Below, piece by piece: positions 19,085-41,898 of a stretch of 42,734 nt of DNA. Each line of letters begins with the position of its first letter. Position 1 is the first letter of the stretch. The DNA is from Defluviitaleaceae bacterium (GTDB lineage: Bacteria > Bacillota > Clostridia > Lachnospirales > WQUN01). The translations under genes were made by a program, and so were the position numbers. The notes beneath the pieces are model-generated. The model was not told the origin of the DNA. It saw only the letters and a list, made by a program, of their open reading frames with translations, and did no database searches. Location of the stretch: NCBI GenBank assembly GCA_009785615.1, contig WQVX01000006.1, positions 1 to 42,734 of the forward strand, written 5' to 3'.

Positions 19085-19085
19085 T

Positions 19086-19937: not shown

Positions 19938-19959
19938 ATAAACACAGTCGGGGGTAGTT

Positions 19960-21678
19960 ATGATACGTTTTCCAAATCCGGGATCGGATATTACGTCATT
20001 TTTACGCATTTATAAGACGCTTTACACATATCTGAATGGGCAGTCTTGGTTCACACTTGATGATATGTCTGCAATTTTAACACAAATGAATTTGGCGGCT
20101 TCATCCGGTCATGTTGGGGAGCAAGCACTGACATTGTCTACAAGAGCAGACAGAAGCCGTGACCCACTATACAACCAATCAAAAATGTATGCCGAACTTT
20201 ACAGAACACTTGGCTGGATGGTGTCGGACGCTCCCGATGCCGTATTAAAATTTAGGTTTACCTTGCTTGGCGACCATGCTGCCATTGCAGACATAGACCC
20301 CAAAGCAATTTTTGAAGAAAGTATACTTGGAATAAATTATCCAAATAAAATTATAGCAGTTAAATCAACGGAAGCATCTCGCGTGTTTGCAACTATTTTG
20401 AAAGTAGCTATAAGGCTGGATGGTTATATATGCCGTGACGAAATTATTGTAGGTATTATGAACAATGATGATATTGGCGAAGATAACATTGACGACATTG
20501 TAGCCAAAATAAAAGCGATTAGGGGAAGCATAACAAAGCTTTCAGATGCTATTATGGAATTGTCAAAACGTGTCGGGATACTAAAAATCACAATGGAAAA
20601 CTACACTCGTTTTCCGCTTGCAGCTTTAACTTATTGTGGTTGGTTTGAAAAAGAGAGAACTAAACAGTTTTATCCGAAAGGACGACCAATAGTTATGTTT
20701 CGGATAACAGAGTATGGAGAAAAACGAGCTGATGAAATTAAATCACTTTTTGATATTCGGCTGGCAGATTATGAATCGTACTCAATAAAAAAGAAAGAAT
20801 CGCTTGTGCGTTTAGGCTTTTATACAATGCTCCAACGTTCTAAATTTGATATTTCTTCTGTTGTTAATCAAATTAAAAAAGATCAAGCTGTTTTAAAAAA
20901 TGAAATTGCAAACAAGGCTATTTTGTTTTCTCCTTACCAAACAATTCGCCCTGAAGTTGCTGATGACATTTTGGGTCATATACGTCAACATTCCAATAGC
21001 ACTATTATAGATTTAATATGCACAAAAAATGGCGGAATTCTTACTGTAGAAAATCTCACTCGCCAAGTAACAACAGTTAGATTAAATCAACTTGGAGATA
21101 TATCAAGTATTGCAAAAGCAGAAAACGAAATAGCCATTAAAATTCTTTCGCTTATTGAATTGGGCAAGTCTGATAGGAAAATAGCCGATATACTCCACTC
21201 TGAAAATATCGACTCTCTACAATCAATATTTTATCCGCTGGTTGCTGATTTGTTTGATATAATAGGGTTCAATTGCCGAGCATCACGGGCCGGCATCAAT
21301 TATGAACGTTGGGATGCAATAGCAATTGATGCCGAATGTAGTATTCCGATTGAAATAAAATCTCCAACAGAAGAACGGTTTATTTCTGTAAAAGCTGTTC
21401 GGCAAGCTCTTGAAAACAAAGTTGTTTTGCTTTCAAGAAAGTCATATAAAACAGATTGGGATAGCGTTTCGCTGGCTGTTGGCTACAATCTTCCTAAAGA
21501 ACGAGCCGAAGTTTCCAGACTTATTGCCGATATAAAAAATACATTCAATATAAAAATTGGTGTCATTGATTTACACTCTTTACTGATGATAGCGAGTGCT
21601 GCCCTCAGAGGGGATAACGCGGATAGAGTAAGTGAAATACGCCAAATGGAGGGTTTGATCAATGTCGAAAGTTTTTAG
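19960..21678 (+). CDS. Putative restriction endonuclease, large subunit (PD-(D/E)XK)
   Basis: A 572-aa protein. The C-terminal domain has a clean nuclease core: Asp452 in RWDAIAID, then Glu465-Ile-Lys467 in PIEIKSPTEE, followed by the helix AVRQALENKVVLLSRK. The N-terminal ~350 residues are helical with winged-helix-like parts (YGEKRADEIKSLFDIRLADYE) and probably recognise DNA. Size and architecture recall the large subunits of heterodimeric type IIS enzymes such as BspD6I or BsrDI; that is an analogy, not a sequence match I can prove. It overlaps the next gene by 17 bp, implying coupled synthesis. Confidence 0.75.
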   Translation: MIRFPNPGSDITSFLRIYKTLYTYLNGQSWFTLDDMSAILTQMNLAASSGHVGEQALTLSTRADRSRDPLYNQSKMYAELYRTLGWMVSDAPDAVLKFRFTLLGDHAAIADIDPKAIFEESILGINYPNKIIAVKSTEASRVFATILKVAIRLDGYICRDEIIVGIMNNDDIGEDNIDDIVAKIKAIRGSITKLSDAIMELSKRVGILKITMENYTRFPLAALTYCGWFEKERTKQFYPKGRPIVMFRITEYGEKRADEIKSLFDIRLADYESYSIKKKESLVRLGFYTMLQRSKFDISSVVNQIKKDQAVLKNEIANKAILFSPYQTIRPEVADDILGHIRQHSNSTIIDLICTKNGGILTVENLTRQVTTVRLNQLGDISSIAKAENEIAIKILSLIELGKSDRKIADILHSENIDSLQSIFYPLVADLFDIIGFNCRASRAGINYERWDAIAIDAECSIPIEIKSPTEERFISVKAVRQALENKVVLLSRKSYKTDWDSVSLAVGYNLPKERAEVSRLIADIKNTFNIKIGVIDLHSLLMIASAALRGDNADRVSEIRQMEGLINVESF

Positions 21679-24417: not shown

Positions 24418-25482
24418 ATGCCGTTTTATAATGAATTTGAACAAATATTTTTATTTCTACACAATTGGGATAATAATGTTGTTGTTATGGCAATTTTTAT
24501 TATTTTACATGTGCTTACCATTGTCTTACGTTTAGCTGTTTTTTTTGGATATAAAGGATTAAATGCTTTAATGACTATGGACATGATGCCGGCACGAGGA
24601 TTAGTTTCAAAAGCTGATATTCCAACCATTAGAAGCAGTTTGCTAAAGCGCGTTGCAGCAGATTATGTTGCAGCAGCAGAAAAAAACGCCCCACGAATTC
24701 CATTAAAAGCCATAATAGATAAACATATATTGTCTCTATCTTTTTTAGGATGGCCCTATGCAGGTATCAGCAAGTGGATAGAAAAATTGGAAAGCAGTTT
24801 AATGCTCTTAGGGTTAGCCTTAGCCTTTTTGTTTTTGGATTATGGTAATGCATATATATTGCTGGCTTTGACGGGCTTTATTATCTTAAAACTAGCTGCT
24901 GCATTTTTTGATTATGATACTGCCAAGCAAGTTTTAGTAAGTGATATACACTTGTACATGGAACGGGAAGTTGGTCAGTTTTTTGCGGGACATACTGCCG
25001 GAGCAATATTGCAATTTAAAAAAGGCATGGAAGAAGCTGTAGATCACCAAAACGCACTACTTCGCGGTACAATAGAAAAACTAAATGCAGATTTGCACTT
25101 GACATTAAAAAACCTTGAATGTTTGGCAACTTTGCCAAAAGCTTTGGAGAATATGATTCAAAGTAATGATAAATACGCGCTGCATCACGACACCTACAAC
25201 ACCCAAATTCAAATGATTAAAGATACTCAAGCGGCCTTAGCATCCAGCTTGGAAGTTTATGAGACTACATTACAAAATTTAGTACAGACTATGGGCAATG
25301 GCATGGGGACGTTTATTCAACTACATGGTCAAAATGCCGCAGATTCTCTTGTGGATGTGATGCAAAATCACATGACACATGTTATAGAAAACAACCAACA
25401 AACAGTGTCGTCTATAACAAGTCTAATGGATCAGCTAACAGATCAGTTGCGTACCTTGCATGAGCGAATTACTACTTTGTAG
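24418..25482 (+). CDS. Membrane protein with long helical cytoplasmic tail
   Basis: A 354-aa protein. Hydrophobic segments lie near residues 20-45 (VVVMAIFIILHVLTIVLRL) and as a pair near 125-165 (SLMLLGLALAFLFL and ILLALTGFIILKLAAAFF). From about 170 to the end it is helical and heptad-like, with many Gln, Asn, Leu and Met, resembling the coiled-coil tails of methyl-accepting or MotA/TolQ-like scaffold proteins. I do not recognise a family. As first gene of the Hsp70 operon it is a plausible membrane anchor of the complex. The start has a near-perfect AAGGAGGTG. Confidence 0.7.
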   Translation: MPFYNEFEQIFLFLHNWDNNVVVMAIFIILHVLTIVLRLAVFFGYKGLNALMTMDMMPARGLVSKADIPTIRSSLLKRVAADYVAAAEKNAPRIPLKAIIDKHILSLSFLGWPYAGISKWIEKLESSLMLLGLALAFLFLDYGNAYILLALTGFIILKLAAAFFDYDTAKQVLVSDIHLYMEREVGQFFAGHTAGAILQFKKGMEEAVDHQNALLRGTIEKLNADLHLTLKNLECLATLPKALENMIQSNDKYALHHDTYNTQIQMIKDTQAALASSLEVYETTLQNLVQTMGNGMGTFIQLHGQNAADSLVDVMQNHMTHVIENNQQTVSSITSLMDQLTDQLRTLHERITTL

Positions 25483-25496
25483 GAGGAGTGGCCGGC

Positions 25497-26717
25497 ATGG
25501 ACATACGAGAAGCATTAGAATATCCGCTGCCGGTGCTGTCCGTCAGCAAAGAAGAAATTGTAATTGAAGCAAACATTGAATCTAACATTAATTCTAATAA
25601 AAGCTATGAAGCATCTTTTGAATTAAAAAATTTTAAAGGCGGAATATTGTCAGGAAAAATAATATCCCCTGTTAAAAGTTTAACTTTTGAACCAAATACA
25701 TGGGAAGGAAACCGCCAAACTGTAGTATGCCGTTTTTCTCCGGATCCTATGGAATGTTGGAAGCCGGGAGAAGTGCATACATTTTCAACTTTGATACTTT
25801 CTAACGGAGGCGAATTCACTTTACCTATTACTGTCCGTTTGGCTAAAATGGCCATAAATACTTTAGAAGGTATAACAATTGCTAATCTTCAAGATTTTTA
25901 TGATTATGCTCAAAAATTTCCTCAAAAGGCACAAAAATTATTTACCGACATTAAATTTCCCAAACTATTGTCCGCTACAAATTTTTTATATATTGATGCA
26001 TATTCTTTTTTGGCAAAAGAGGCTAATTATAACCAAGCACGAGCAATGGATAACTTTTTTATCCTGGCCGGACTTAAAAACCGAACCAAACTACAAGCCC
26101 TTACATCTACAAAAGAACATATATCAAAAATTAAAGATGATAACATGATATATGGCGCATTTATGTTACAAAAAAGTGATATCGGATATGTAGATGCTCA
26201 TATTTCTGCATTAAATGATTCGCCATGGATATCTTTATCAAGCAATACATTAAACACATGGGATTTTGATGACAACCTTACTGCAATGATAAAATACAGC
26301 ATAGATCCAATGCAAATACGCGGTAGATATGCTTGTGAGCGAATCTTAATAACTGCGGCAGATACAGAAGATGTACCTGTAGATATAATCTTTAAACGTC
26401 CGGCACCCATCAAAACTTGGCTAACCAGAGAAGGCTATAAATTTCAAGACGAAGGATTTATAGTTGTGGAAAATCAACTGGACGAACCTTTAATTTTAGA
26501 ATTTTTTTGCAAAGAACAGTTTGTGCGCTTTTATCAGGAGAGATACAAAGTTGAAGGAAGATTAAGCATCCCATTTTTGATTAAACTGTCTCCTTTACAG
26601 TCAGCGCAGATGCTTTTTCGTAAAGTACCATCATTATCAGCAGAAATTGAGATCCGCACTATTTATAGTGGTACCGTAATCAGAAAGGTTTTGACTTTAA
26701 CAGCAGGAGAATGGTAG
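25497..26717 (+). CDS. Ig-like/beta-domain protein of the Hsp70 operon
   Basis: A 406-aa protein from the ATG at 25497 (AGGAGG 10 nt before); a GTG at 25488 is too close to that site. Residues ~10-120 read as a beta-sandwich (EIVIEANIESNINSN, SYEASFELKNFKGG, PITVRLAKM). Residues 125-215 are helical (FYDYAQKFPQKAQKLF) and the rest is beta-rich again. There is no signal peptide, so it is probably cytoplasmic. It resembles, from memory, the N-terminal part of large uncharacterised Lachnospiraceae proteins (DUF5717 type) encoded near Hsp70 genes; here that protein may be split between this gene and the next. Function unknown. Confidence 0.6.
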   Translation: MDIREALEYPLPVLSVSKEEIVIEANIESNINSNKSYEASFELKNFKGGILSGKIISPVKSLTFEPNTWEGNRQTVVCRFSPDPMECWKPGEVHTFSTLILSNGGEFTLPITVRLAKMAINTLEGITIANLQDFYDYAQKFPQKAQKLFTDIKFPKLLSATNFLYIDAYSFLAKEANYNQARAMDNFFILAGLKNRTKLQALTSTKEHISKIKDDNMIYGAFMLQKSDIGYVDAHISALNDSPWISLSSNTLNTWDFDDNLTAMIKYSIDPMQIRGRYACERILITAADTEDVPVDIIFKRPAPIKTWLTREGYKFQDEGFIVVENQLDEPLILEFFCKEQFVRFYQERYKVEGRLSIPFLIKLSPLQSAQMLFRKVPSLSAEIEIRTIYSGTVIRKVLTLTAGEW

Positions 26718-29519
26718 GTGTCCATGTTTCAAAAAAAGATTGATAATATGGAAAAGCGTTTTGAAATGCGGCCAACAGTAAAAACAGCCGTAGGACTTGC
26801 TCTGCGTAAATGGCTTGTTTATGCAGTATCAGTTGTACCGGAACCCAGAGAGTATTTGCACCGTGCTAACCATGTAATTTTAACAAGATTACGCAAAAAC
26901 GAGTCGGATATGCGTCTTTTTTGGCTGGGCATATATTTTTCAATTGAGCTGGGCTACTTTGATAAAGCTAATGAGATGCTGGACAATGCATACACTTACC
27001 GTGCTTACTATAAAAGCAACCAGCCTTTTAACTATAAAATACTGCACTTTTTGTATTCGTACCTTGAAATAAAACAAAAACGAGCCAAATCTGCAAAAAA
27101 ACATATGCGTACATTGGAATCCGCAGCAGGAGCTTTTGGTTCAATTGATTTTGATCCTAAGTTTGACCCACTTATGATGGGTATGCTTCATCTGGCCTTT
27201 TATGAATATGACGAAGCATATAGATATCTTGCCCGCAGCTATAGGGCCGGTTGCCGCAGTGTATTCTTGTTTAGTGCGTTATTTAACTTTTATCACACAG
27301 CTACTGCTCGCGGAAGAATAATGGGAGAGAGCGATAGCCGTATGCTTTTGCAAACGGTTCATTGGGCACTTAACCATGACGCAGATGTAGAGCATATTAT
27401 TGTTGTTTATCAAAATGAACTGTTGCAAAAAGATCATATCGCGCTTGGCGAGAGAATATACCACCAATTTCCAAATCAGTGGATGTTAAAGGAATTGTGC
27501 GCACATTATATGACAATACCTGATTATGGGCCAAAGGCATATGAATATTATCGAGATGCAGAAAGACGGCAAATCTACCTTCCAAATTTAAGCTATTTTT
27601 TGGTTCGCGCAGCGTTTTGCAGTGGGGCAGAGCGCATACATCGCTATACCATGACCCAATATTTGCGCAAGCCGGATGAAGATATAGACTTGCTAACATA
27701 CGTTTACCATCTTCTTTTAACAGATGAATCATTGTCAGATTTAGCTGCAAATCATGTTCAAAGTATAATCAAAGTAGCTGCACACTGCATGAATGAAAAT
27801 ATAAGAAGTCGTTATGCTAATAGCTTATACTACTTTTTTTGGATAAAATGTAACGAACAGCAAATTAAAGGTGAAAATGTTGATAGAGTTGAAAAAGTCC
27901 TTCTTGAAGATCTTTATAAATTTGAGGTGGTTTTTCCCGTTAAAAATGGAGATAAAACACCTGTAAAAAATCTCTATATTGATGAGCAAGAGAAAAACGG
28001 CATTACTGAATATGAATTTCCATCAGATGGTTCAACGCTGATAATTAATGCTGTAAGCAACGGATTTAGATACGTGGGGCTAAGTAGCAGCCATACTACG
28101 GTATTAGAAGCGGGGGTAACTGCACCTTTAGAAATTTATAGACGAATAGCCTCTGCCGGGACAGCACTATACCGTCATTTTTATGACAAAAACATTAGAG
28201 ATTTTGAAATAATTGCATATCTGGCTAAAGCCTATATTCAAGCCATATCAAAGGGAGAATACCAACAAAACCAAGATTGGGAAAGTGTTTTAGAGGCTGT
28301 TTTAGTTTCAAAAGAAGCCTCAAAAGCATTTAAAACTCAGTGCAGTGTTGCCCTTGGTGAGCTTTATTATAAAAAAGGTCAGTTAGAAAAAGCACTTTTA
28401 TGCTACGATAAAGCCGATGAAAATGCACTGGATGACGAATTTTTGGAACATATGCTTACAGTTTACGTAAAACAACAAGCTTTTGAAGCGGCCACAGGGT
28501 TAGTAGAGCGTAAGGGGCATCGAATAGGCGTTAAAGTGCTTTTTGAAGCATTAAAACCGCTTTCATTACAAGAACATGCTAACCGGCATCCGGCTATTGC
28601 AAAAACTGCATATGAATTATTGTTGCGGTCAAGATATGATAAAAATTTATTAGAAGTGGTCTTAGCGCACTTTACAGGTACTCAAAAACAGTGGTTGGAT
28701 TTAAGCCAAATGCTATCCAGTATGTCTATTAATGAACCCCGATTAGCTGAAATTATACTAAACAATGCTGCCTGGGGACATCACTTTGATGAAGCTACTC
28801 AGCGAGTATTTGTAAAAATGATAAATGATGAAACTGCCGGAGAAAGCTTTAAAAAATGCCTTCAGGATTTTATATACTATGCTATGTATGAGATTATTAT
28901 TGAAAAAGCAAAGCCTTTACCTGAGACAATTGCTGCATTGGAAAAAACTTATATAGAAAAAATTCATTTTAAAGGCGAAGAAAACCTTTTAGCTTATGGC
29001 TTGTGTCATGTATATCTGGGTCATGGAGTTACTACAATTAATTCAAATACAATTATTGAAGCGGCTGTTTCTTATCAAAAAGAAAAAGGTATGTTATTTC
29101 CCATATTTAGAGAAAGCAAAAAGAAGATAAATGCGTATATAGGAAAGTACAGGTCATTTATGTATCGAACACTGCCCGGGAAAAATGTGCGTTTATATTA
29201 TAGAGTAGACGAGGAGGAAGATTGGCGTGTAAAGGATATGGATTACTGGCTTTTTGGTCTGTATATGACTTATGTCCCTCACTTCTATGATGAACGGTTA
29301 GAGTATTATTTTAGCGAAGAGCTTTTGACAGGAAGCATAACCACTCAGCAGGAAGAGGTACATAACACAGATATGTACCTGGATGAAAATAGCACAGATC
29401 CATTTTTTATTATTAATAATGCCACTATTTACGAGCAGATGTTTAGATACGAGCAGGTAGAAGAAATTATCGGAGGATTGGTAAGGGATGTTAAAACAGT
29501 AAGAAGTAGATTGATGTAA
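26718..29519 (+). CDS. Large helical-repeat protein, 933 aa (possibly DUF5717-type)
   Basis: A 933-aa soluble protein starting at GTG 26718 (GGAGA 8 nt before) or ATG 26724. Helical hairpins of the TPR kind recur: [67 protein letters not shown] beta segment (residues ~400-470) interrupts the helices, and a C-terminal domain contains [16 protein letters not shown]. No J-domain HPD motif is present. Such scaffolds bind partner proteins; here the obvious partners are the Hsp70s downstream. It abuts the previous gene. The family name is from memory and uncertain. Confidence 0.65.
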
Positions 29520-29800: not shown

Positions 29801-31489
29801 ATGGGTACTTTAGGACTAGATACAGAACGTGGATTGTTTTTAGGAATCGACTTTGGTACAACAAACTCTGTGGTGAGTATATATGACTTTAAAGCCGGAG
29901 AGGCTCAAACAATTCCCATTGATGGAGCCAACATATTTCCAACAGCTATTCAATTTGAAGCGGATCCGGATGATGATGCAAAATTAACACGAGTTTTTGG
30001 AGTGCAGGCCAGAGAAGCAGTCATTATCTATCCGCAATCTACAATACTGTCAATCAAGCGATTTTTAGGCGGTGACGAGAAACTTTCCATATCAGTAGAT
30101 GAGAAAGAATATAATTTCTCTCCTCAAGAAATTGCAGGAGAAATTTTAGGATATCTAAAACAAAAAGCAGACGAATACGCACAAGAAGAGCTTAATATCA
30201 GTGGTGAATTCTCGGGATGCGTTATAACGGTGCCGGCTAACTCCACAGATAAGCAAAAGAAAATGACCAAAGAAGCAGCCATTCTTGCAGGTTTTGATGA
30301 AGATAGCGTGTATCTGCGTTTAGAACCTGCTGCATCTGCAATTAGTTATGCCATTAATGAGACTAGTGACAAAAAAGTTTTGGTATATGACTTTGGTGGT
30401 GGTACCTTTGACGCTTGTGTACTTGATATAAAGATCGAAGCTGAAGGGGAACCTACAATATCTATCATCAGCACCTTTGGTGACAATGACTTGGGCGGAA
30501 ACGATGTAGATAAAATCATCATGGACATGATCTATGAAGAGTTTAAAAAGCTAACCAACGAGGAAATAGATCTCTTTGATGAAAATGCTGACGATGGTGT
30601 ATCTAAACGGCAAAAAAAGGTGGCTTTGGTACGTTTGCAACAGGCGGCTACTCAAGCAAAAGAACGCCTTTCTCAAACCAAATCTACTAAAATTCAACTT
30701 GCGCCACTTATTCAAGAACCCAAAATTGTTAATATAAATATGGAAATGTCACGAGAAGATTTTTATGGACATCGTCGCATTAATCCTTTGGGAGATAAGC
30801 CGGAGCTTTTTGAAAAATTTGCGGGTAAAAATCTTCACGATTTGATAGGACGCACTTTAGATTGCGTGGATAAATGTCTTGAAGCCGGTGGCCTTACTCC
30901 CGCAGATATAGACGAAGTTTTTACAGTAGGTGGAAGTTCTTCATTATTGCTTGCTGCTGACGCAATTACAGCAAGATTTAACAAGGAGCCTTTTAAATCC
31001 CGTATCAGTCCTGCATTAAGTATATCTCAGGGTGCAGCCCATTACTGTAATATGATAATGATGCCTACAGTAAGAGGCCCTGTTGTGCAGGAAAAAACTA
31101 TTCATCCTCTTGGACTCGAAATTGCAGGGCGTAGATTTTTGGAAATCGTTCCGGCGGGAGAAACTATACCAAAAGATGGCTTAACCATAGACGCAAGCGA
31201 ACCTCTTACTACCAATTTTGACCATGTATCCAGTATGGCAATAGTGGTATATGAAAACACTCTGCCCGTAAGTTTGAAAAAAGATAAGGAAAGCCAATCT
31301 GTCAACCAAGAAGGTATGAAACGCTTAGCCGGCACATCTTTAAGAGGTATTCCACAAGGCCCAAGAGGGCAAGAGAAGGTCAAGGTAATATTCCATGTAG
31401 GCCAGGACAATATGCTAAAGGTTACTGCCCGCAGCTTGTCCGCAACCGGCGTAGTTACGGAGCTGTCTGTTGATGAACTCTACACATAA
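29801..31489 (+). CDS. Hsp70 family protein 1
   Basis: A 562-aa DnaK-like chaperone ATPase. Nucleotide-binding motifs are intact: GIDFGTTNSVV (15-25), DFGGGTFD (197-204) and VGGSSSL. After the ATPase domain the substrate-binding beta domain is recognisable (GLEIAGRRFLEIVPAGETIPK) but the helical lid is missing: DnaK is about 610-640 aa. A stretch near residues 310-350 is divergent. Four such genes lie in one operon here, so this is a specialised Hsp70 rather than the housekeeping DnaK. AAGGAGG precedes the ATG; the end overlaps the GrpE-like gene. Confidence 0.93.
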   Translation: MGTLGLDTERGLFLGIDFGTTNSVVSIYDFKAGEAQTIPIDGANIFPTAIQFEADPDDDAKLTRVFGVQAREAVIIYPQSTILSIKRFLGGDEKLSISVDEKEYNFSPQEIAGEILGYLKQKADEYAQEELNISGEFSGCVITVPANSTDKQKKMTKEAAILAGFDEDSVYLRLEPAASAISYAINETSDKKVLVYDFGGGTFDACVLDIKIEAEGEPTISIISTFGDNDLGGNDVDKIIMDMIYEEFKKLTNEEIDLFDENADDGVSKRQKKVALVRLQQAATQAKERLSQTKSTKIQLAPLIQEPKIVNINMEMSREDFYGHRRINPLGDKPELFEKFAGKNLHDLIGRTLDCVDKCLEAGGLTPADIDEVFTVGGSSSLLLAADAITARFNKEPFKSRISPALSISQGAAHYCNMIMMPTVRGPVVQEKTIHPLGLEIAGRRFLEIVPAGETIPKDGLTIDASEPLTTNFDHVSSMAIVVYENTLPVSLKKDKESQSVNQEGMKRLAGTSLRGIPQGPRGQEKVKVIFHVGQDNMLKVTARSLSATGVVTELSVDELYT

Positions 31490-33248
31490 TAATTTGCAAA
31501 AATCATGGGGTACACTGTTGACGGCAACAGAAAACTATGCCAGACAGTGTACTGATATATTATTTAACGAATGCAATCGCAGGATATCATGGAAGCTGTT
31601 GAATGAAGCTGCTAAACTATCTAAGTTTGGCAGTCATGATGAGGAAGTATATAACCATTGTAAACGGCTAGTATTGTCATACAAAGAAACGGTTGATTTG
31701 CATGACCGTTTTCATGATGAAATCGTAAGCCATGAAGTTAGAGAGATAATTGATGGAATAGTTACAGTATTAGTCTCTAGGTTAAGAGAATTTGAAGAGA
31801 TGAATATTGATACGATTATTAAGTCTGACACCAATCCTGTAACTGTTGAAAAAAATGCTATAATTGCCCAGGCCACAAATAATCTGGTAAAATGCATAAA
31901 TAATCAACGGTTAACTTTTAGCGAAGAAATGTCTGCGTTTTGTGTGCGTTGGATGAGGCAAAATCTAGCAAAAGAGTTTTTGTTAGAAGCTATTAGCAAA
32001 GAAATATTGCCCGTTATATATAAATCTTATTGCAGTGGTCTTGAATTGTGTAAAAGTCAACTAAATGACATTAATCATCGCAAAAAAATACAGCTTTATC
32101 TAACCTTAATGGAGGACGAACTTGAGATACTCTCAACCATTATAAAAATTCAAGTTAAAGCTTTGGAGCAAGCGGTAGAATATGCTTCAAATCCTCTTGA
32201 AAAAATTGCGGTACACAAAATCTTATCTTTGTTGCGAGAAGCCTACCAACATTTTGGGCGCGCTTCCACAGAAATTGCTGCGGTCTTTCGTCGTTTAGAA
32301 GAAGATAAATTGGATAAGGCTCTAAATATTCCGGTTTCCTACGATAGCTTTGAAAAATTTTTACTTGATCGCTTTAGAAAAATTCGATTTTCAAATAGCA
32401 ACCGTATAAAAGAAAAAGTTGGAATATTTAAATCTCAAATAGAAAATGAAATAGATTCATTTCTTGGGCGGTATAAACTGGATTTTTATAAATCGATATA
32501 CCGTTTTCGTCGAATGGCAAGCGTAGAAATTATGCTGGCAGATGAAATGATAAATATCTTTGTAAACTTACACAATGCTTGGCCTGTGCTTGAACAAGAT
32601 GCAGAAAAAGAATTACAACAAGAAATATTACAGGGTGTTGCAGAAACCATCGAAATAAAAGTAGATGGATTAAAAGAAAGCACCTTGCAGTTTAAAGAAG
32701 AATGTGCTAAGGCAATAGCAGATTTTTCTGCTAAAAATAACCCTCCAACTGATGAAAAACTGCAAACCGCTCATGTAGAGGCATGGCGGTTATGGACAGA
32801 AAATTCTGAGGATTTTTTTCAATCTTACCCGGAAGCTCCGGTATTTGCAGAGTTTAGTCAGTACTATGAAAAAAGCACTTCTCGCTGTCAGGAAAATTTA
32901 GAAAAAAAGCTGATGAAGTTTAAAAGAGAGGTATTATTATACGAAATCAGCACTTATGAAGAAATTATCGCGTATAGTGTTTCCCGCTTGCGTGAAGATG
33001 AGGCTACTCAATATGCGGCAGAATTAGCTGATACTACTTTGGCTAAACTGGAAGTCCTACTGAAAAAGAACAACATAGAATTGATACGCCCTAACCCTCA
33101 TGATACTTTTAACCCTAAAGAACATGAGATTCTTATGGCAGAAACATTGCCGGAGTTTAAAAAGGGTGAAATAGTCAAGCTTATGAATAGTGGTTATCGG
33201 CAAAGAGATACTGTCTTGCTACGTGCTAATGTTATAGTGGCCAGGTGA
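31473..33248 (+). CDS. Long helical protein with C-terminal GrpE-like head (candidate nucleotide-exchange factor)
   Basis: A 591-aa, strongly helical, charged protein. The last ~58 residues read NIELIRPNPHDTFNPKEHEI, later KKGEIVKLMNSGYRQRD and TVLLRANVIVAR. This follows the GrpE head domain pattern G-(I/V)-E-x-I-x-P...F-(D/N)-P-x-x-H-E...G-x-V-x-x-(V/L)-x-x-G-Y...V-L-R-x-A-x-V-x-V-A. GrpE exchanges ADP for ATP on DnaK but is only ~180-210 aa; here ~530 residues of helix precede the head. The gene overlaps Hsp70-1 by 17 bp and abuts Hsp70-2. The start is the ATG at 31473; a TTG lies one codon upstream. Confidence 0.75.
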   Translation: MNSTHNNLQKSWGTLLTATENYARQCTDILFNECNRRISWKLLNEAAKLSKFGSHDEEVYNHCKRLVLSYKETVDLHDRFHDEIVSHEVREIIDGIVTVLVSRLREFEEMNIDTIIKSDTNPVTVEKNAIIAQATNNLVKCINNQRLTFSEEMSAFCVRWMRQNLAKEFLLEAISKEILPVIYKSYCSGLELCKSQLNDINHRKKIQLYLTLMEDELEILSTIIKIQVKALEQAVEYASNPLEKIAVHKILSLLREAYQHFGRASTEIAAVFRRLEEDKLDKALNIPVSYDSFEKFLLDRFRKIRFSNSNRIKEKVGIFKSQIENEIDSFLGRYKLDFYKSIYRFRRMASVEIMLADEMINIFVNLHNAWPVLEQDAEKELQQEILQGVAETIEIKVDGLKESTLQFKEECAKAIADFSAKNNPPTDEKLQTAHVEAWRLWTENSEDFFQSYPEAPVFAEFSQYYEKSTSRCQENLEKKLMKFKREVLLYEISTYEEIIAYSVSRLREDEATQYAAELADTTLAKLEVLLKKNNIELIRPNPHDTFNPKEHEILMAETLPEFKKGEIVKLMNSGYRQRDTVLLRANVIVAR

Positions 33249-33252
33249 TTAT

Positions 33253-34800
33253 ATGAATTGGAAAAAATATAAAGCCTTGCAAAAAAAAGATAAGCGAGAC
33301 GAAACTTATTTTATAGTTGGTCTGGATATCGGCAATGATTCTTCAGGAATTGCTTTTTATAACTTTATTGACAATGAGCCTGAACTCATTGATTTAAGCG
33401 GAGGATACGGCAGGCCAACTATTCCTACGGTTATGCAATATATTGCAGAGTCTAAAGAGTGGGTTTATGGAGAATATGCCATTCTTAACCGTGGCATGGG
33501 TCGAGAAGTCACTTTAAGTAACTTGGTAGATCGCTTAGGCAGTTCTGAATATATAGATATAGACAACCGACCCGTTAGTGTGGTTAGTCTTTTAAGTATG
33601 TATATTAAGGAATTGATGAGCAATGTAAAACACATCAATCCAAAGGCAGAAATTGCAGGAATAGTTGCTTCCGTACCCAGCTATTTTAGTACTAATGCTA
33701 GGGATGAATTTGTGCGGGCATTTAAAAATGCCGGATATGAAAAAGAACTTATAGGACTTGTATCTGACCGAGAATGTATATATTCATATCACTATAGGAA
33801 AAGATCTCAAACCGGAGAAAAAACTTTACTTATAGATTATGGCTCTCGCGGGGTGAGAGGAGGGGTTTATACCCTAGAATCCGATGCATCCACATTGCGA
33901 AGCCTGTCTTCCTTATTTGATGATGAAATTGGTACTCGGATGATTGAAGAACAAGTAAAAGATTTGTTTACAAATTATTATAAAGCAAATAATCCTATCC
34001 AAGCCCGACAAGGATTAGATCGCAATATTTTAGATCAGCTTATAGCTTTTGTCTACCAGCACAAAGACATACTCTTTCAAAAGGCCATACGAAATAAGCC
34101 GGCAAAATTGTACTTTAACTTTGCTTTTCCGCCTTTCCAGCAAACAGTAACTGTAGAGGATTCAGATAACCTTGTGGAGCCTTTTCGTAAACAGTTTAAT
34201 AAATTTATCCGCCAAGTATTGGAAAAAAATCTTACAGAAAATATTACAGTTATTGATATAGACGTGGTGTTATGCGTAGGCGGCGGCTTTGAAATGGTGT
34301 GGACTAAAGAAGCCATTGCATCCCTGTTTCCTCAAGGTAAGCTGCAATTATATAAAAATTCTAAAGCTATAACAGCCATGGGGGCAGCGGTCGCAGCAGC
34401 TCAATTGTTAGAGGTGGCAGAAGGTTATCCTATTACGATAGAGGACAGACATCAACTACCGGTGGATATAGGCTTTAGGATTGGAGATAATTTTATTCCT
34501 TTGGCAGAATGCAACAGCTTTTGGTGGCAGCCTCACCCAATCAAGCTATTTATCATTAACAGCCCTGTTAAAAACGAGGTTCCTTTTACCATTTTATCAC
34601 GTTCACCGGAAGGAGAAACAAAAACGCTGTCTGATGCGCCTCTTAAAAATTTGCCGGAACGGCCTAAGGGCACAACTCGACTTAGTGTACAACTAAAATT
34701 TTTATCAGATAGAGAAGCTATGGCAAAAATTGAGGATTGTGGATTTGGGGAATTGTTTCCTAAAACGGGATATGAGCAAGAAATAACAGTTAAATTATAA
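33253..34800 (+). CDS. Hsp70 family protein 2, predicted catalytically inactive (pseudo-Hsp70)
   Basis: A 515-aa protein collinear with Hsp70-3 and sharing its MNWxxYK start, but with ruined ATPase motifs: GLDIGNDSSGIAFY (23-36) replaces GIDLGTTNS, and IDYGSRGVRGGVY (194-206) replaces FDFGGGTLD, with Arg202 where the catalytic aspartate should be. The EEPKAAAL helix is SDRECIYS. The adenosine-pocket glycines (CVGGGFEMVW) remain. The beta domain is present in short form. The frame is fully open, so this is a conserved pseudo-enzyme or a nucleotide-free scaffold, not a decayed gene. AGGTGA precedes the ATG. Confidence 0.88.
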   Translation: MNWKKYKALQKKDKRDETYFIVGLDIGNDSSGIAFYNFIDNEPELIDLSGGYGRPTIPTVMQYIAESKEWVYGEYAILNRGMGREVTLSNLVDRLGSSEYIDIDNRPVSVVSLLSMYIKELMSNVKHINPKAEIAGIVASVPSYFSTNARDEFVRAFKNAGYEKELIGLVSDRECIYSYHYRKRSQTGEKTLLIDYGSRGVRGGVYTLESDASTLRSLSSLFDDEIGTRMIEEQVKDLFTNYYKANNPIQARQGLDRNILDQLIAFVYQHKDILFQKAIRNKPAKLYFNFAFPPFQQTVTVEDSDNLVEPFRKQFNKFIRQVLEKNLTENITVIDIDVVLCVGGGFEMVWTKEAIASLFPQGKLQLYKNSKAITAMGAAVAAAQLLEVAEGYPITIEDRHQLPVDIGFRIGDNFIPLAECNSFWWQPHPIKLFIINSPVKNEVPFTILSRSPEGETKTLSDAPLKNLPERPKGTTRLSVQLKFLSDREAMAKIEDCGFGELFPKTGYEQEITVKL

Positions 34801-34852: not shown

Positions 34853-36490
34853 ATGAACTGGGAAGAATATAAACAAAAAATTGAAGAACGGGGTAACTTG
34901 CCTGAAGATTGGTATATTATTGGCATTGACTTAGGTACTACCAATTCGGTAATCAGTTATTGGGACAGTAGCAATGGTAGGCCGGAACCTATTGATATCA
35001 GTAACGGTTTTGGGAAAATTCCTCTTCCTTCTGTAGTGCAGTATCGAGAGGATGAAGATTCAGACCAAGCTGAATGGGTAATTGGCGAGGAAGCTTACCG
35101 TTCTATGAAAATATACCCGGAAACCACTGTTCGTTCAGCTAAACGCTTGATGGGTACTCAGGAAACTTTTAACCTTGGCGGAACCGAATATCTCCCGGAA
35201 GATATTTCTGCAAAGATATTGCAGGAGTTGGTGAGCCATGCCGAACATCTTAATCCTAAAGCTGAAATTGCAGGGCTGGTAGTATCTGTGCCATATGATT
35301 TTGATGATGCTGCAAAAAAAGCAACTATGCGTGCGTGTCAACTGGCAGGTTTATCAGACAAATTAATATGCTTGATAGAAGAACCTAAAGCAGCAGCTTT
35401 GGCCTACAACTTTCGGCGTCAGTTGGATTTAGGCGAAAAAATCATGGTATTTGACTTTGGCGGTGGCACCCTTGACATAACTATCTTCCATATAACTGAG
35501 CGAGATGAGGAAAGAATTAAACTTCAGGTAATAAGTGAAGGTGGTGAAGCTTGTCATGGTGGCGATAATGTTGACGAAGCTTTATTAAAACAATGTTATG
35601 ACTATGTGAAGAATAAAACAGGTCAATCCAAAGAAGATATTGCAGTAGAAAATCAAGTGGAGCTTTCTTTACGCGCTCGGGAAGCTAAAGAACGCCTATC
35701 CGGAGTTAAATCCTTCCGTATTCCTTTTACTTTTTGTATTCCTCCTTTTGTGGAACAAATGACACGAGAGCAATTTCAAGAACTGATTCGGCCATTTATA
35801 GATAAAACACGCAAATTAGTGCAAAAGGCCCTTAGAGAAACATATACAGGTGCTCTTGTAGCTGATGATATTGACAGGGTTTTATTAGAAGGCGGCTCTT
35901 CTCAAATGCCTTGGGTTAGGGAAATGTTGTTGTATATTTTTAATGATGAAAGCAAGATATATACTTCTGAACGCCCTGCCACAGATATTTCATTGGGGGC
36001 AACCTATTATGCTGCTATGAAAATGGGATTGCTTTCTCAGCCGGATATGGAATCTGAAACTGTTAGCGTAGAGTTTGAAGTAACGGTACCTCATGATATT
36101 GGGCTTGAGATTACAGGATCGGGAGGCTCTCGTTTTTTTACCATGATTCGCCGTGGGACGTCCTACGCATTAGCAAAGAAAAGCCATATCTTTACTTTGT
36201 CCGGGGATACAGAAGAAGAGATGCAGACTTTTGATTTGCGTATCTTAGAGCGACTTGATAAAGAAGACCCCTATGAAAAATGCAAACTGATAGGAGAGGT
36301 TAGTATAGTAGGTTTACCGGTTAGGCCAAGTGGTAAAACCAGACTTAAAATAACCTTGATGGTAGAAGAAGAAGGCGGCTTGGTAAAAGGTAGCGTAGAA
36401 GATATGGGATGTGGTGACGACTATCCACCTGTAGACTTTAAAGAGGATTTTGATCCCGGCAGATTTGTAAAAACAGTGGTAGGGAGGTAA
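34853..36490 (+). CDS. Hsp70 family protein 3
   Basis: A 545-aa DnaK-like ATPase with intact motifs: GIDLGTTNSVISYW (24-37), DFGGGTLDITIF (201-212), EEPKAAALAY (176-185) and LEGGSSQMPW. It has the same 20-residue N-terminal extension (MNWEEYKQ) as Hsp70-2, so the two arose by duplication and one lost its ATPase. The substrate-binding beta domain is short and the lid is absent; the C-terminus is acidic (GCGDDYPPVDFKEDFDP). A ribosome binding site AAAGGTG precedes it. It may pair with Hsp70-2 as an active/inactive couple. Confidence 0.93.
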   Translation: MNWEEYKQKIEERGNLPEDWYIIGIDLGTTNSVISYWDSSNGRPEPIDISNGFGKIPLPSVVQYREDEDSDQAEWVIGEEAYRSMKIYPETTVRSAKRLMGTQETFNLGGTEYLPEDISAKILQELVSHAEHLNPKAEIAGLVVSVPYDFDDAAKKATMRACQLAGLSDKLICLIEEPKAAALAYNFRRQLDLGEKIMVFDFGGGTLDITIFHITERDEERIKLQVISEGGEACHGGDNVDEALLKQCYDYVKNKTGQSKEDIAVENQVELSLRAREAKERLSGVKSFRIPFTFCIPPFVEQMTREQFQELIRPFIDKTRKLVQKALRETYTGALVADDIDRVLLEGGSSQMPWVREMLLYIFNDESKIYTSERPATDISLGATYYAAMKMGLLSQPDMESETVSVEFEVTVPHDIGLEITGSGGSRFFTMIRRGTSYALAKKSHIFTLSGDTEEEMQTFDLRILERLDKEDPYEKCKLIGEVSIVGLPVRPSGKTRLKITLMVEEEGGLVKGSVEDMGCGDDYPPVDFKEDFDPGRFVKTVVGR

Positions 36491-36492
36491 TT

Positions 36493-38571
36493 ATGGGCTA
36501 TTTAGGAATAGACTTAGGTACCACCAACTCGGTGGGAATTATATATAATGATAAAAACGATTCTCTGGATGTAGTAAAACTTGATGGAAGTGACGAAATT
36601 TTACCTTCTGTTGTCAGTTATACAGAAGAAGGTGTCGTAGTAGGCAGCGAAGCAAAAAATGGTGCTATCATATATCCCGAAAGTACAATCATGTCTATCA
36701 AGCGCATGATGGGTTCAAGTGAAAAATTGGATATTAATGGCACAGAGCGCACCCCGGAAGAAATTTGTGCGGAAATTTTAAAAAAGCTAAAAATTGCTGC
36801 GGAAGCTCAATCTTCTGAAACTTTTAACGAGGTGGTAATAACCCATCCGGCTTATTATAACGATCGGCAGATATTCGCTACCAAGCAAGCAGGATTACTT
36901 GCAGGGTTTGAGAATGTCTTTTTGTTGTCTGAACCTTTATCTGCCGCCATTGAATATGGATATCGTCAAAGTTATGCTCAAACTTTGTTAGTTTACGATC
37001 TTGGAGGTGGTACTTTTGATGCCTGCGTATTGGATGTCTCTCAAGATGCAGAAGGTCAAGAGGTTTTTCAAGAACTATCTGATGTAGGCGATATGGATTT
37101 GGGCGGCGATGATTTTGATGCTGAATTGATTCGCTGGATGAAAGAAAAGTTTACAGAGGATAATGGTATTAATCCTGACGATTTAGAATCACTTGAGCGG
37201 AAGCGGGTCATACAAAAACTGAAACATGAAGCAGAGCAGACCAAAAAGAAGCTTTCCGGCACAAATAAAGTAGCAGTGCGTATTAATCCGTTGCTGATTC
37301 ATAATGGTGTACCCAAAAATCTGCAAGCTGAGATAACCAGAGAAGATTTTGAAGCCATGATCCGCAAATATGTTGACCGTAGCCGTGATATCGTGGAAGA
37401 AGCTCTTAAACGTGCGGGAAAACAAGCAGACGAAATTTCTAAAGTAATATTAGTTGGTGGATCTACATTAATACCTATGGTTAAAAGAATGGTTGCCGGA
37501 TATATCAAAGAGCCATATCGTGCCACTGACCCTGCAAAGTCTGTAGCGATGGGGGCGGCAATTTATAATTACCTGATACATCTACCTAACCGTAATGTAA
37601 AAGTAGGACAGATTACCAGACAAATTTTTGGAACAGAAGCTGTCACCAATATTGCAACAATGGAGCGGGGGCTTATTCCGATTGTCCCTATGGGCAGCCC
37701 TATTCCCAGCAAATTTTCAGATAATAATTTTGCAAGTATGTCCGGTGCATCAAGGGTGCATGTGGATGTGTATCAATGGGAACAAGGACACGAAGAAGAG
37801 CGCAAGTTTATAGGAACAGTAGGACTTGCAGGATTAACAGGTGCCACACAACTTGAAATCACTTATGCTATAGATGAAAACAATATTTTTGAAGTATTTG
37901 TTAAAGACATGAATACAGGTCATATAGAGAGAGCTGAGTTTGACCGAACTAAATCTGCCGCCCCTCCTGAGCGAGAAGCCTATACCAGAGGAACTGACAA
38001 AGTTAATGTAGTATTCTTAATTGATACCACGGGTAGCATGGATACTTACATTAACGGTGTTAAAGACCGTGCTATTGAGTTTGCCGGAATACTGGCTTCT
38101 AAAGGCGCAAGCTATAAGTTGGGCTTAATTGGCTTTGGTGATTTAGGTGAAAAAGAAAAGCCAAGTGTCTACAATTTTACGGACGATGTGCCTAAATTCC
38201 AAAAGCAAGTGAAAAATATTCCCAGAACTTACGGTGGCGATATCCCTGAATCATCATTGGATGCTGTAGAAACAGGAATAGAACTCCTTAATGCCCATAG
38301 AGCAGATGAAGGCGCACGTAATATTTTTATCTTAATAACTGATGCTCCTCCTCATGTGCCTACTGACAGCGGAAAAAGCGTAGCGCAAATACGAGATATG
38401 TTATTAGAAAAATCTGTAACAACTTATGTAGTGGCTCGTAAAGATCGTGAAAGTATAGAGTGCTATGATCCATTAACAAAACCCGGCGGCAAATACTATG
38501 ACTTAAATGACAAGTTTTTTGACATACTTGATAACATTGCCATGAGTATTGCAGAGCTGGTAAGAATCTAA
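36493..38571 (+). CDS. Hsp70-vWA fusion protein (Hsp70 family protein 4)
   Basis: A 692-aa protein. Residues 1-~380 are a complete Hsp70 ATPase domain: GIDLGTTNSVGIIY (5-18), YDLGGGTFDACVLDV, VGGSTLIPM. A shortened beta domain follows. From ~505 to the end lies a von Willebrand A domain: VVFLIDTTGSMDTY (MIDAS-type D-T-T-G-S at 511-515), GFGD, a GGDIPES loop, and ITDAPPH with the second MIDAS Asp. vWA domains bind ligands or partner proteins through a metal ion, so here the usual peptide-binding end of Hsp70 is supplemented by an adhesion-type module. GGGAGG stands before the ATG; it starts 2 bp after Hsp70-3. Confidence 0.93.
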   Translation: MGYLGIDLGTTNSVGIIYNDKNDSLDVVKLDGSDEILPSVVSYTEEGVVVGSEAKNGAIIYPESTIMSIKRMMGSSEKLDINGTERTPEEICAEILKKLKIAAEAQSSETFNEVVITHPAYYNDRQIFATKQAGLLAGFENVFLLSEPLSAAIEYGYRQSYAQTLLVYDLGGGTFDACVLDVSQDAEGQEVFQELSDVGDMDLGGDDFDAELIRWMKEKFTEDNGINPDDLESLERKRVIQKLKHEAEQTKKKLSGTNKVAVRINPLLIHNGVPKNLQAEITREDFEAMIRKYVDRSRDIVEEALKRAGKQADEISKVILVGGSTLIPMVKRMVAGYIKEPYRATDPAKSVAMGAAIYNYLIHLPNRNVKVGQITRQIFGTEAVTNIATMERGLIPIVPMGSPIPSKFSDNNFASMSGASRVHVDVYQWEQGHEEERKFIGTVGLAGLTGATQLEITYAIDENNIFEVFVKDMNTGHIERAEFDRTKSAAPPEREAYTRGTDKVNVVFLIDTTGSMDTYINGVKDRAIEFAGILASKGASYKLGLIGFGDLGEKEKPSVYNFTDDVPKFQKQVKNIPRTYGGDIPESSLDAVETGIELLNAHRADEGARNIFILITDAPPHVPTDSGKSVAQIRDMLLEKSVTTYVVARKDRESIECYDPLTKPGGKYYDLNDKFFDILDNIAMSIAELVRI

Positions 38572-38572
38572 C

Positions 38573-39745
38573 ATGAAGCTTATACTTTGTGCCTCACAGC
38601 AAGAAAACTCTGTGCCCTATCGTTTTACAGCGACGGGCATACAAGTATATACATTTGAAGAAGCTTTGTATCATGTGTACCATTATTGGAAACAGTCTGT
38701 GGATGACATTACCGCCTCTAACTTAATCTCTTGGGTTAGTGATACCTTGGGACTTGCTGTTTTAGCATCCAAGCTAAAAGAGATTGCCAAAATAGAGATA
38801 TTTAGTGAGCGTATGCTAACTTTTTTAGGAGTAATTGAATATTTTGAAAAAAGTGAGCTGGCAGCGTTAAAGCCTCAATTGGAACGCTGGGAAAAGCGTC
38901 TGGAATGGGAGACTTACAAAGAACGAGCAGACGACATGGTAAAACGTGGAGAGCCGGACAAGGCTATTCCGCTTTATCATCGTGCGTTGCATTTTGATAA
39001 AAATATACCTGTTTTAAACAATCTGAGTGTTGCATATATGCAGATGGAGGCTTATAAAGAAGCATGTATTTTTCTGGAACAGGCGTTAGAGATGGAAAAA
39101 TGTAATTGGGAGTTAATTTTGCATTATGCAGAAGCATTGCTGCATAATAATCGCATTACAGAAGGTGCTAAGGCGATTGAATTAGCTGCTGAAGTTTCGC
39201 CGGAAGCAGCTAAAGGAGATATTTTATATCTAAGAGGCGAGTTGTCTTTACGAAAAGGAAAACATGACGATGCTATCTCCTATTTTGAACAGGCAATTGC
39301 ATTGTATCCCCAAGATCAATATGTGTTTCGCTTATCTGATGTTTACGTAGGGCGTCGCCAATTTGAAAAGGCTTTAGATGTGCTTAATCATTTTATCCCG
39401 GATCCTGTTAAGGAACGAAACATCTCTTGTTTGATGAAAGAAGCTGAGCTTCATAGTTTAGCGGGCAATCTTTTTGGTGCTATCCAAACCATTAAGAGAG
39501 CACAAAAAATAAAGCCCGACTATGTAGAGTTGTGGGTACGCTTAGCTAGGTATCTTCGTTTGGATTATAATTTGCCAAAAGCAGAAGAGGCTATTGACAA
39601 GGCTCTTTCTTTGGATTCGAGTAACGAACGGGCAAGGCTTGAAAGTGCAAGAATAAAAAAGGGAACGGGCCATACTAAATCATATCAGCAGTTACTTAAA
39701 GGAATTTTAGCTGAGTTTAAGGGAAGGTATAGGGAGGTACATTAA
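38573..39745 (+). CDS. TPR-repeat protein of the Hsp70 operon
   Basis: A 390-aa soluble protein with an N-terminal ~110-residue helical region and then at least five tetratricopeptide repeats: YKERADDMVKRGEPDKAIPLY, LNNLSVAYMQMEAYKEACIF, LYLRGELSLRKGKHDDAISYF, then two or three further units to ~370. TPR proteins act as docking platforms and are classic co-chaperone partners of Hsp70 tails. It begins one base after the Hsp70-vWA stop, and there is no strong ribosome binding site, so it is probably translated by coupling. Confidence 0.88.
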   Translation: MKLILCASQQENSVPYRFTATGIQVYTFEEALYHVYHYWKQSVDDITASNLISWVSDTLGLAVLASKLKEIAKIEIFSERMLTFLGVIEYFEKSELAALKPQLERWEKRLEWETYKERADDMVKRGEPDKAIPLYHRALHFDKNIPVLNNLSVAYMQMEAYKEACIFLEQALEMEKCNWELILHYAEALLHNNRITEGAKAIELAAEVSPEAAKGDILYLRGELSLRKGKHDDAISYFEQAIALYPQDQYVFRLSDVYVGRRQFEKALDVLNHFIPDPVKERNISCLMKEAELHSLAGNLFGAIQTIKRAQKIKPDYVELWVRLARYLRLDYNLPKAEEAIDKALSLDSSNERARLESARIKKGTGHTKSYQQLLKGILAEFKGRYREVH

Positions 39746-40774: not shown

Positions 40775-41827
40775 TTAGTTAAGCTTTGATAATCCTATAA
40801 CAAATTGTAGAGAGAGGTCTTTTTCATCTTCAGTAAGCTTATCAAAGTAAAAGTTCATCTGTTGCATTTTAGGATCTTCATAACTTTTGGAATCAACATC
40901 AGCTAATTCAGCACCCATCAAAACCTCTAAGGGTACCTTAAAGATACTTGCTACGTTAAGTAAACAATTAGAGGTTAAACCTCTTCTTCCATTTTCCACA
41001 TTACTTAAATGTGTAGCGTCGATTTTCATCATCTCCGCTAGACCTGCTTGAGTCATTCCATTAGCCATTCTTTTCTCTCTAATATTTTTTCCAATAACTT
41101 TTTTTAGCTTTTTATTACCAATTTTGGAATCGGCATAGGTTTGATAGTCTCTGTACTCACTTTTTAACATTTTATATGTCTCATTTTCTCTGTGGACTTC
41201 CAAAGTTTTAAAACCATCATCTACAAGAGCATCATCGTTATAAAACGTCCCCTTGCGAATTAAAGTCGTTGTTTCAAATGCAAGAAATTCTTCCTTGCCT
41301 TTATAAATGTCTAGTAATATGGCAATGTGAGCATCAAACATGTCTTTCAATTCCTTAGTTGGTTCGTTATCCATTTCAATAAATCTGGCTCTTAGTAACC
41401 GAACCGAAGCATTGTAACTAAAGGCCATTTTAACAGTGTCATATATTGGTTTATCAGAATAATGTTTTTCCAATCCCTTTAAGAATTTTTTTTCAAATCG
41501 CGACTGAATATCCTCAAAATATTTTGTATGTCCAATAGAAGCGGATAAAATTCTTACATCCCATTGATCTAAATCTGCTATATTAGCAAGTCTGTTTAAA
41601 GTTGGAGCGAGTATTTCACAACTTTTCTCAAAGCCATTGTACAGTCTTTCGATCTCTTCCATCTGTGATAGTCGTATCAGATCGTTAATTTGCACATCAT
41701 CTCCATAAACTTCAATATAGGCATTTAACTCATTTTCTACAATCTTGCTTTCACCAGGTTTATGGTTGCCCCCAACATCAAAAAAATTATTAAGTAATGC
41801 TTCTTTTGGTTTTGGTTCTGAAGTCAT
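40775..41827 (-). CDS. XRE-family regulator with C-terminal helix-turn-helix
   Basis: A 350-aa protein. Residues 245-304 are a classic Cro/C1-type domain: IGKNIREKRMANGMTQAGLA, MMKIDATHLSNVENGRRG, LLNVASIFKVPLEVLMG. Residues ~30-235 are helical and may bind a ligand or partner; a short helical tail follows the HTH. In most XRE sensors the HTH is N-terminal, so the order is unusual. It has a perfect consensus promoter and AAGGAG before the ATG. Two matching dyads lie in the divergent region upstream, and a peptide ORF follows it; both are natural candidates for its targets. Confidence 0.88.
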   Translation of the reverse strand: MTSEPKPKEALLNNFFDVGGNHKPGESKIVENELNAYIEVYGDDVQINDLIRLSQMEEIERLYNGFEKSCEILAPTLNRLANIADLDQWDVRILSASIGHTKYFEDIQSRFEKKFLKGLEKHYSDKPIYDTVKMAFSYNASVRLLRARFIEMDNEPTKELKDMFDAHIAILLDIYKGKEEFLAFETTTLIRKGTFYNDDALVDDGFKTLEVHRENETYKMLKSEYRDYQTYADSKIGNKKLKKVIGKNIREKRMANGMTQAGLAEMMKIDATHLSNVENGRRGLTSNCLLNVASIFKVPLEVLMGAELADVDSKSYEDPKMQQMNFYFDKLTEDEKDLSLQFVIGLSKLN

Positions 41828-41869: not shown

Positions 41870-41898
41870 ATTATATCATCCAGTAATTAAGATGTCAA
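41870..41898 (-). promoter_or_regulatory. Perfect consensus promoter of the XRE regulator gene
   Basis: Minus strand TTGACA (41893-41898), exactly 17 bp, TATAAT (41870-41875). Such a promoter would be very strong unless repressed. Confidence 0.85.

Follow-up and report, generated by a model that had tools for sequence, protein, structure and literature searches.

A stretch of 42,734 nucleotides of contig WQVX01000006.1 from a Defluviitaleaceae bacterium (assembly GCA_009785615.1; hereafter the window) carries an operon in which the gene for an unusually long GrpE-like protein (31473..33248, plus strand; 591 amino acids (aa)) lies among genes for four Hsp70-like proteins, here named H1 to H4. 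All operon genes are located on the plus strand. The reading frame of this long GrpE is intact, starting with an ATG at position 31473 and ending with a stop codon at 33246-33248, and its first 17 nt are shared with the 3' end of H1, the Hsp70 gene upstream of it. The conserved gene order comprises a coiled-coil protein with two transmembrane (TM) segments, a DUF5717 protein, H1, the long GrpE, H2 (a DUF5716 protein), H3, H4 (an Hsp70-VWA fusion) and a TPR protein.

In a Pfam scan, residues 465-590 of the long GrpE matched the GrpE profile PF01025 with 50.5 bits (E 2.5e-13; cut-off 25.8), and in a whole-genome profile search the protein scored 54.9 bits. The original prediction, made from the sequence, had recognised a GrpE head at the C-terminus and proposed this profile comparison as a check. 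The significant match bears it out, and the head motifs that it quoted occur in the protein and are strongly conserved among 20 homologs. An AlphaFold2 model built on 21 sequences, with a mean predicted local distance difference test score (pLDDT) of 88.6, is entirely helical from residue 2 to 532 and continues with six beta strands at residues 535-590, which form the GrpE beta head that had likewise been anticipated. When the model was compared with the PDB using Foldseek, the top 11 matches were all GrpE or GrpEL1 structures with a probability of 1.00 each; their E-values were only 0.001 to 0.02, and the GrpE matches span roughly a quarter of the chain. With a structural aligner, human GrpEL1 (9bls) was placed on model residues 441-591 with Z 10.2 and a root-mean-square deviation of 4.0 over 147 residues. 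A sequence search against solved structures returned one GrpE (4ani, E 0.0018) and otherwise helical noise. According to the model helices and the alignment to 9bls, the GrpE stalk and bundle helices correspond to residues 456-506 and 510-532 (32838..33068), and the beta head to residues 533-591 (33069..33245). The head aligns with E. coli GrpE and with the GrpE of the host genome itself. Its mean pairwise identity within the long GrpE family is 61%, compared to 47% for residues 481-532, and the bundle helices, which belong to the stalk and four-helix bundle through which GrpE proteins dimerise, are conserved across the homologs. A chance match to GrpE is ruled out by a score of about twice the Pfam cut-off, the conservation of the head in the homologs and the match in fold. 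Based on the predicted structure, the long GrpE is a true GrpE-fold protein, and its GrpE part, consisting of stalk helix, bundle and beta head, would comprise about 150 residues (441-591). The 530-residue helical stalk of the original prediction stands as far as its helicity is concerned; in the model, however, residues ~441-532 form an ordinary GrpE stalk and bundle, and residues 1-440 form a separate extension.

The long GrpE is additional to the housekeeping GrpE and does not represent it. Its best match to an NCBIfam GrpE equivalog reached 36 bits against a cut-off of 266, and its gene is not located with dnaK or dnaJ; the canonical grpE-dnaK-dnaJ set of the host genome was found on a separate contig (C141). 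GrpE proteins usually have a length of about 170-280 aa, and their N-terminus is short and disordered. Among 136 PF01025 matches above the cut-off in 129 genomes of the phylum, the frame in the window was the only one longer than 400 aa, and the others ranged from 166 to 357 aa. The size had been singled out as unusual from the start, and in limited searches of open-access text we found no paper describing a GrpE this large.

The N-terminal extension (residues 1-440; 31473..32792) consists of about a dozen helices in the AlphaFold2 model and was again all helical when it was predicted by itself (pLDDT 85.5). Comparison with the PDB revealed no fold match at E<=0.001. The best rows of the structural aligner were designed helix bundles (best Z 10.8), with Z scores of about 10-11, a range common to helical proteins in general. 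The scores of ClyA, DH-domain, TTYH and F-BAR proteins lie within this same range, and these proteins were not accepted as relatives of the extension. The extension is weakly conserved, with a mean pairwise identity of 21-29% depending on the region. Within it, the stretch ILQGVAETIEIKV (residues 385-397; 32625..32663) contains five residues (I385, G388, T392, I395 and K396) that are invariant in 21 sequences, and a similar stretch is discernible by eye even in forms of 166 and 279 aa. The usual frames of the long GrpE family comprise about 500-665 aa, and relatives encode proteins of 166 aa (L152), 279 aa (L125), 312 aa (L151) and 499 aa (L154) in the same operon slot. Because this slot holds such shorter GrpEs, the extension is, judged from these relatives, modular and largely dispensable in some lineages. 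The suggestion of the original prediction that it holds several Hsp70s or senses a signal finds no support in these data. The extension shrinks to almost nothing in the relatives of 166-312 aa. The 166-aa GrpE (L152:2407-2907) keeps the head and a recognisable ETLTLKLENL stretch and appears from its sequence to be a natural minimal form.

To describe the distribution of the operon proteins across 245 genomes of the order, the long GrpE, H1 and H4 were called present or absent according to a gap in the scores of the listed matches, with one 202-aa match (G069) taken as canonical and excluded from the long GrpE set. The 61 genomes with the long GrpE are exactly the 61 with H1 (Fisher p 3e-59, without correction for common descent), and H4 occurs in 60 of them and in one further genome. 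All 184 sampled genomes without H1 are also without the long GrpE, and nearly all of them still encode a GrpE. Among genomes of close relatives, 43 of 61 contained matches to the long GrpE, and a sample of approximately 390 genomes from other orders of the phylum yielded no full-length relative. In the sampled genomes the operon is restricted to one clostridial order and extends across many of its families. One family (f5) retains DUF5717, DUF5716 and TPR as a three-gene set; neither the long GrpE nor an H1 or H4 ortholog was found in these genomes, and H3 is missing from the locus. Because of the co-occurrence sets and the pattern in f5, H1, and probably H4, are indicated as partners of the long GrpE. 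Named carriers are mostly metagenome-assembled genomes (MAGs) of Defluviitaleaceae and Clostridiales, together with MAGs of Ca. Epulonipiscium and the cultured Defluviitalea phaphyphila Alg1. Many of the carrier MAGs bear isolate names which we take to denote termite-gut samples. MAG contigs are short, so that absence of linkage holds at the contig scale. The reduced f5 version was seen in L124, L126, L127, L128 and L134, where it consists of DUF5717, DUF5716 and a TPR protein of ~280 aa.

To evaluate which of the neighbouring Hsp70s may interact with the long GrpE, H1 (29801..31489; PF00012, 226 bits), the DUF5716 pseudo-Hsp70 H2 (33253..34800; PF18980, 79.1 bits), H3 (34853..36490; PF00012, 210 bits) and H4 (36493..38571; PF00012, 308 bits; VWA, 34.6 bits) were aligned with their orthologs, E. 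coli DnaK, HscA, the DnaK of the host and a second Hsp70 of the host. In DnaK, the hairpin 276-302 contacts GrpE (PMC10825016). HscA has a deletion of the 'GrpE-signature' of this hairpin, residues 290-295, and HscC likewise lacks it; neither protein is thought to use GrpE (PMC8215388). In our ortholog sets (between 8 and 21 sequences each, the majority from a single family), the hairpin comprises 27 aa in both DnaKs and 17 in HscA. H1 has a hairpin of 26 aa in 15 of 16 orthologs and of 30 aa in the remaining one, and H4 has one of 27 aa in 8/8; no gap at 290-295 was observed in any of them (16/16 and 8/8). The hairpin of H2 (21/21) and H3 (11/11) is reduced to 21 aa, with half of the 290-295 motif deleted. 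As H1 and H4 keep the GrpE-signature loop and H2 and H3 are without it, H1 and H4 are the predicted clients of the long GrpE. H4 moreover retains K55 and E267 in 8/8 orthologs, a pair that forms one of the cleft salt bridges of DnaK. The original prediction that the neighbouring Hsp70s have an exchange factor of their own is thus in line with the conserved operon, the occurrence in addition to a canonical GrpE and the joint presence with H1 in 61/61 genomes, but has to be narrowed, since only H1 and H4 carry the signature loop.

The four Hsp70s also differ in their ATPase motifs. H2 has lost K70 and T199 in 21/21 orthologs and T11 in 20/21, and because of these losses it is probably not an ATPase. 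In H1, H3 and H4 orthologs K70, T11 and T199 are kept, with single exceptions in H1, and nearly all of these proteins keep the set of K70, E171, D194 and T199. In all four, the LLLD linker is replaced and the helical lid is absent; H1 to H3 end after the beta domain, and H4 runs on into the VWA domain, which takes the place of the lid. The residues R167, D326, Q378 and D393 are tied to J-domain docking, linker function or allostery (PMC8215388). R167 is replaced in all four Hsp70s, and D393 is kept only in the pseudo-ATPase H2. With N170, which likewise belongs to this set, nearly all H1 and H4 have substitutions at these five positions, and only D326 survives in H3, in 2/11 sequences. E. coli DnaK, HscA and the host DnaK keep all five, and the second Hsp70 of the host keeps four. 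In profile searches no J-domain gene was detected in the operon, and the only clear J-domain of the host genome is that of DnaJ. Because the J-contact residues are replaced and the operon is without a J-domain gene, it can be reasoned that H1 and H4 may function independently of J-proteins. The second host Hsp70 (433 bits) is encoded separately on contig C86 (L140:7297-11842), followed by a 947-aa TPR protein. It keeps R167, N170 and D393 and has a shortened GrpE-signature loop, and the frame of the TPR protein contains a J-domain match below the cut-off (23.4 bits).

The first gene of the operon (24418..25482) encodes a protein with two predicted TM segments (hydropathy peaks at 17-46 and 124-166) and a coiled-coil tail, and homologs were found at the same place in several genomes. 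It is followed by the N-terminal (25488..26717; PF18984, 103.7 bits) and C-terminal (26718..29519; PF18983, 83.2 bits) parts of DUF5717. These are two abutting open reading frames (ORFs) here and one gene of 1326 aa in L129, and the split (25488-29519) recurs in several genomes. The last conserved gene (38573..39745; TPR_2, 87 bits) encodes the TPR protein, whose position is conserved as well. Over 20 loci, H2 directly follows the long GrpE in 19, with a 400-aa ORF between them in L049, and H1 precedes it in most loci where the stretch includes H1. The operon is not intact everywhere; in some genomes H1, H3 or H4 is located elsewhere, and the genes flanking the conserved set vary. The searched plasmids and phages contained no match, which speaks against a mobile element. 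A promoter and terminator scan of the window gave counts no higher than in shuffled sequences. In open-access text, we found nothing naming DUF5717, the sole paper naming DUF5716 was unrelated, and no such operon was described apart from the GAP1-N2 parallel discussed below. Elsewhere in the window, a perfect TTGACA-17-TATAAT promoter with an extended -10 element (41870-41898, minus strand) lies upstream of a helix-turn-helix gene (40775-41827), and a pair of neighbouring N6/N4 DNA methylase genes, with a 572-aa ORF without a Pfam match after them (18161-21678), looks like a restriction-modification locus.

We consider it probable that the long GrpE is a dedicated GrpE-type nucleotide exchange factor for the specialised Hsp70 machine of its own operon, with a J-protein-free cycle and an extension serving in docking. 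The most likely role of the C-terminal ~150 residues (441-591) would be to bind H1 and H4 and open their nucleotide clefts. As helical lid, LLLD linker and J-docking residues are all lost, H1 and H4 probably run their ATP cycle without a classical J-protein and would be reset by the long GrpE. The extension of 440 residues would most likely dock the exchange factor onto H2/H3, DUF5717 and TPR, so that exchange could take place on the assembly, and would constitute its variable, lineage-tuned part. The two-TM protein suggests a membrane location. Several observations weigh against this interpretation. Shared ancestry inflates the p-value of the co-occurrence of the long GrpE and H1. The end of the head reads RANVIAAR in the long GrpE and RAAMVTVAK in E. 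coli GrpE, and the position of G122 of E. coli GrpE is not occupied by glycine. H1 is without an equivalent of E267, and nucleotide may therefore leave it quickly on its own, so that little assistance would be required. The extension is dispensable in the 166-aa and 279-312-aa forms, which makes docking a weak explanation for the family as a whole. Since some relatives have the same operon with the extension nearly gone, it cannot be required for the core partnership in every lineage. More tentatively, and with slightly less than even confidence, we propose that the operon encodes a J-protein-independent Hsp70 machine which has shed the J interface, linker and lid and kept the GrpE interface. 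The giant GrpE, as the sole classical co-chaperone, would then drive or time these Hsp70-type ATPases, which would act on a membrane-linked DUF5717/DUF5716/TPR assembly.

It may be speculated that the GrpE head has lost nucleotide exchange and acts as a clamp which fixes the Hsp70-like subunits in a structural scaffold. The loss of linker and lid from all four Hsp70s makes a classical chaperone cycle look unlikely even though three of them keep the ATPase motifs, H2 is probably a pseudo-ATPase, and the TPR and two-TM proteins of the operon would suit such a structure. However, conservation within the long GrpE is highest in the head, and the retention of K70, E171, D194 and T199 in nearly all H1, H3 and H4 suggests that cycling matters; we therefore regard a pure scaffold as unlikely. 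Considerably less probable still, and the least probable of the alternatives, is that the protein serves the general chaperone DnaK as a further exchange factor, for instance under stress, and sits in the operon by chance. Binding of a GrpE fold to any DnaK-type nucleotide-binding domain is conceivable in principle, but the genome already has a canonical GrpE alongside its DnaK and DnaJ, and the long form occurs exactly with H1 and is absent from the 184 genomes without H1, nearly all of which have a GrpE.

Lastly, the operon could belong to the GAP1-N2 conflict systems, in which case the GrpE would serve a defence or self/non-self response. Kaur et al. 2020 (PMC7159879) describe such systems in firmicutes and actinobacteria, with genes for an Hsp70, a GrpE, a second Hsp70 without peptide-binding domain and FNIII-TPR proteins, a parts list similar to that of the operon, and H4 also has a VWA domain. 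GAP1-N2 matches were found in 11 of the 41 genomes searched, namely in close relatives and in the host itself, but in every one of these genomes where the long GrpE is placed as well, the two lie on separate contigs. A Pfam scan of ten operon proteins gave neither a GAP1-N2 match nor a GTPase, PADLOC returned no match to the long GrpE and only weak partial matches elsewhere, and the operon is conserved over many families of the order and absent from the searched plasmids and phages. This assignment is therefore improbable, slightly more so than the scaffold. The dedicated exchange factor remains our preferred interpretation. If its exchange activity is real, the two halves of the Hsp70 cycle, which are usually discussed together, would be separated, and the role of an Hsp70 nucleotide cycle in the absence of J-proteins, linker and lid could be addressed directly. 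The operon also provides a first handle on the uncharacterised DUF5716 and DUF5717 families of gut and termite clostridia, and with Defluviitalea phaphyphila Alg1 a cultured carrier of its long GrpE is at hand.

The GrpEs of E. coli, Geobacillus and Thermus and mitochondrial GrpEL1 share the stalk helix, the bundle helix, the beta head and the head motifs with the long GrpE, whereas bacterial GrpEs have a short disordered tail in place of its 440-residue helical extension. Unlike canonical GrpE, the long form is encoded with divergent Hsp70s and without DnaJ. The Pfam families DUF5716 and DUF5717 are matched by H2 and the two DUF5717 ORFs, and in f5 the three-gene set occurs without GrpE. Within the open-access text searched, the parts list in PMC7159879 is the closest published parallel to the operon: in both, a GrpE stands beside an Hsp70 and a reduced second Hsp70, together with TPR-containing proteins, in firmicutes. 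In contrast to the GAP1-N2 systems, the operon has four Hsp70-like genes, one of them fused to VWA, a giant GrpE and DUF5716/DUF5717, and is without GAP1-N2 or a GTPase; the relevant passages of PMC7159879 give no GrpE size. HscA and HscC resemble H1 to H4 in being Hsp70 paralogs outside the DnaK module, and a shortened GrpE-signature loop is common to HscA, HscC, H2 and H3. HscA and HscC have dedicated J-proteins (PMC8215388), which they kept while dropping GrpE. The operon appears to have taken the opposite course, with a private GrpE, no J-protein and the J-contact residues lost.

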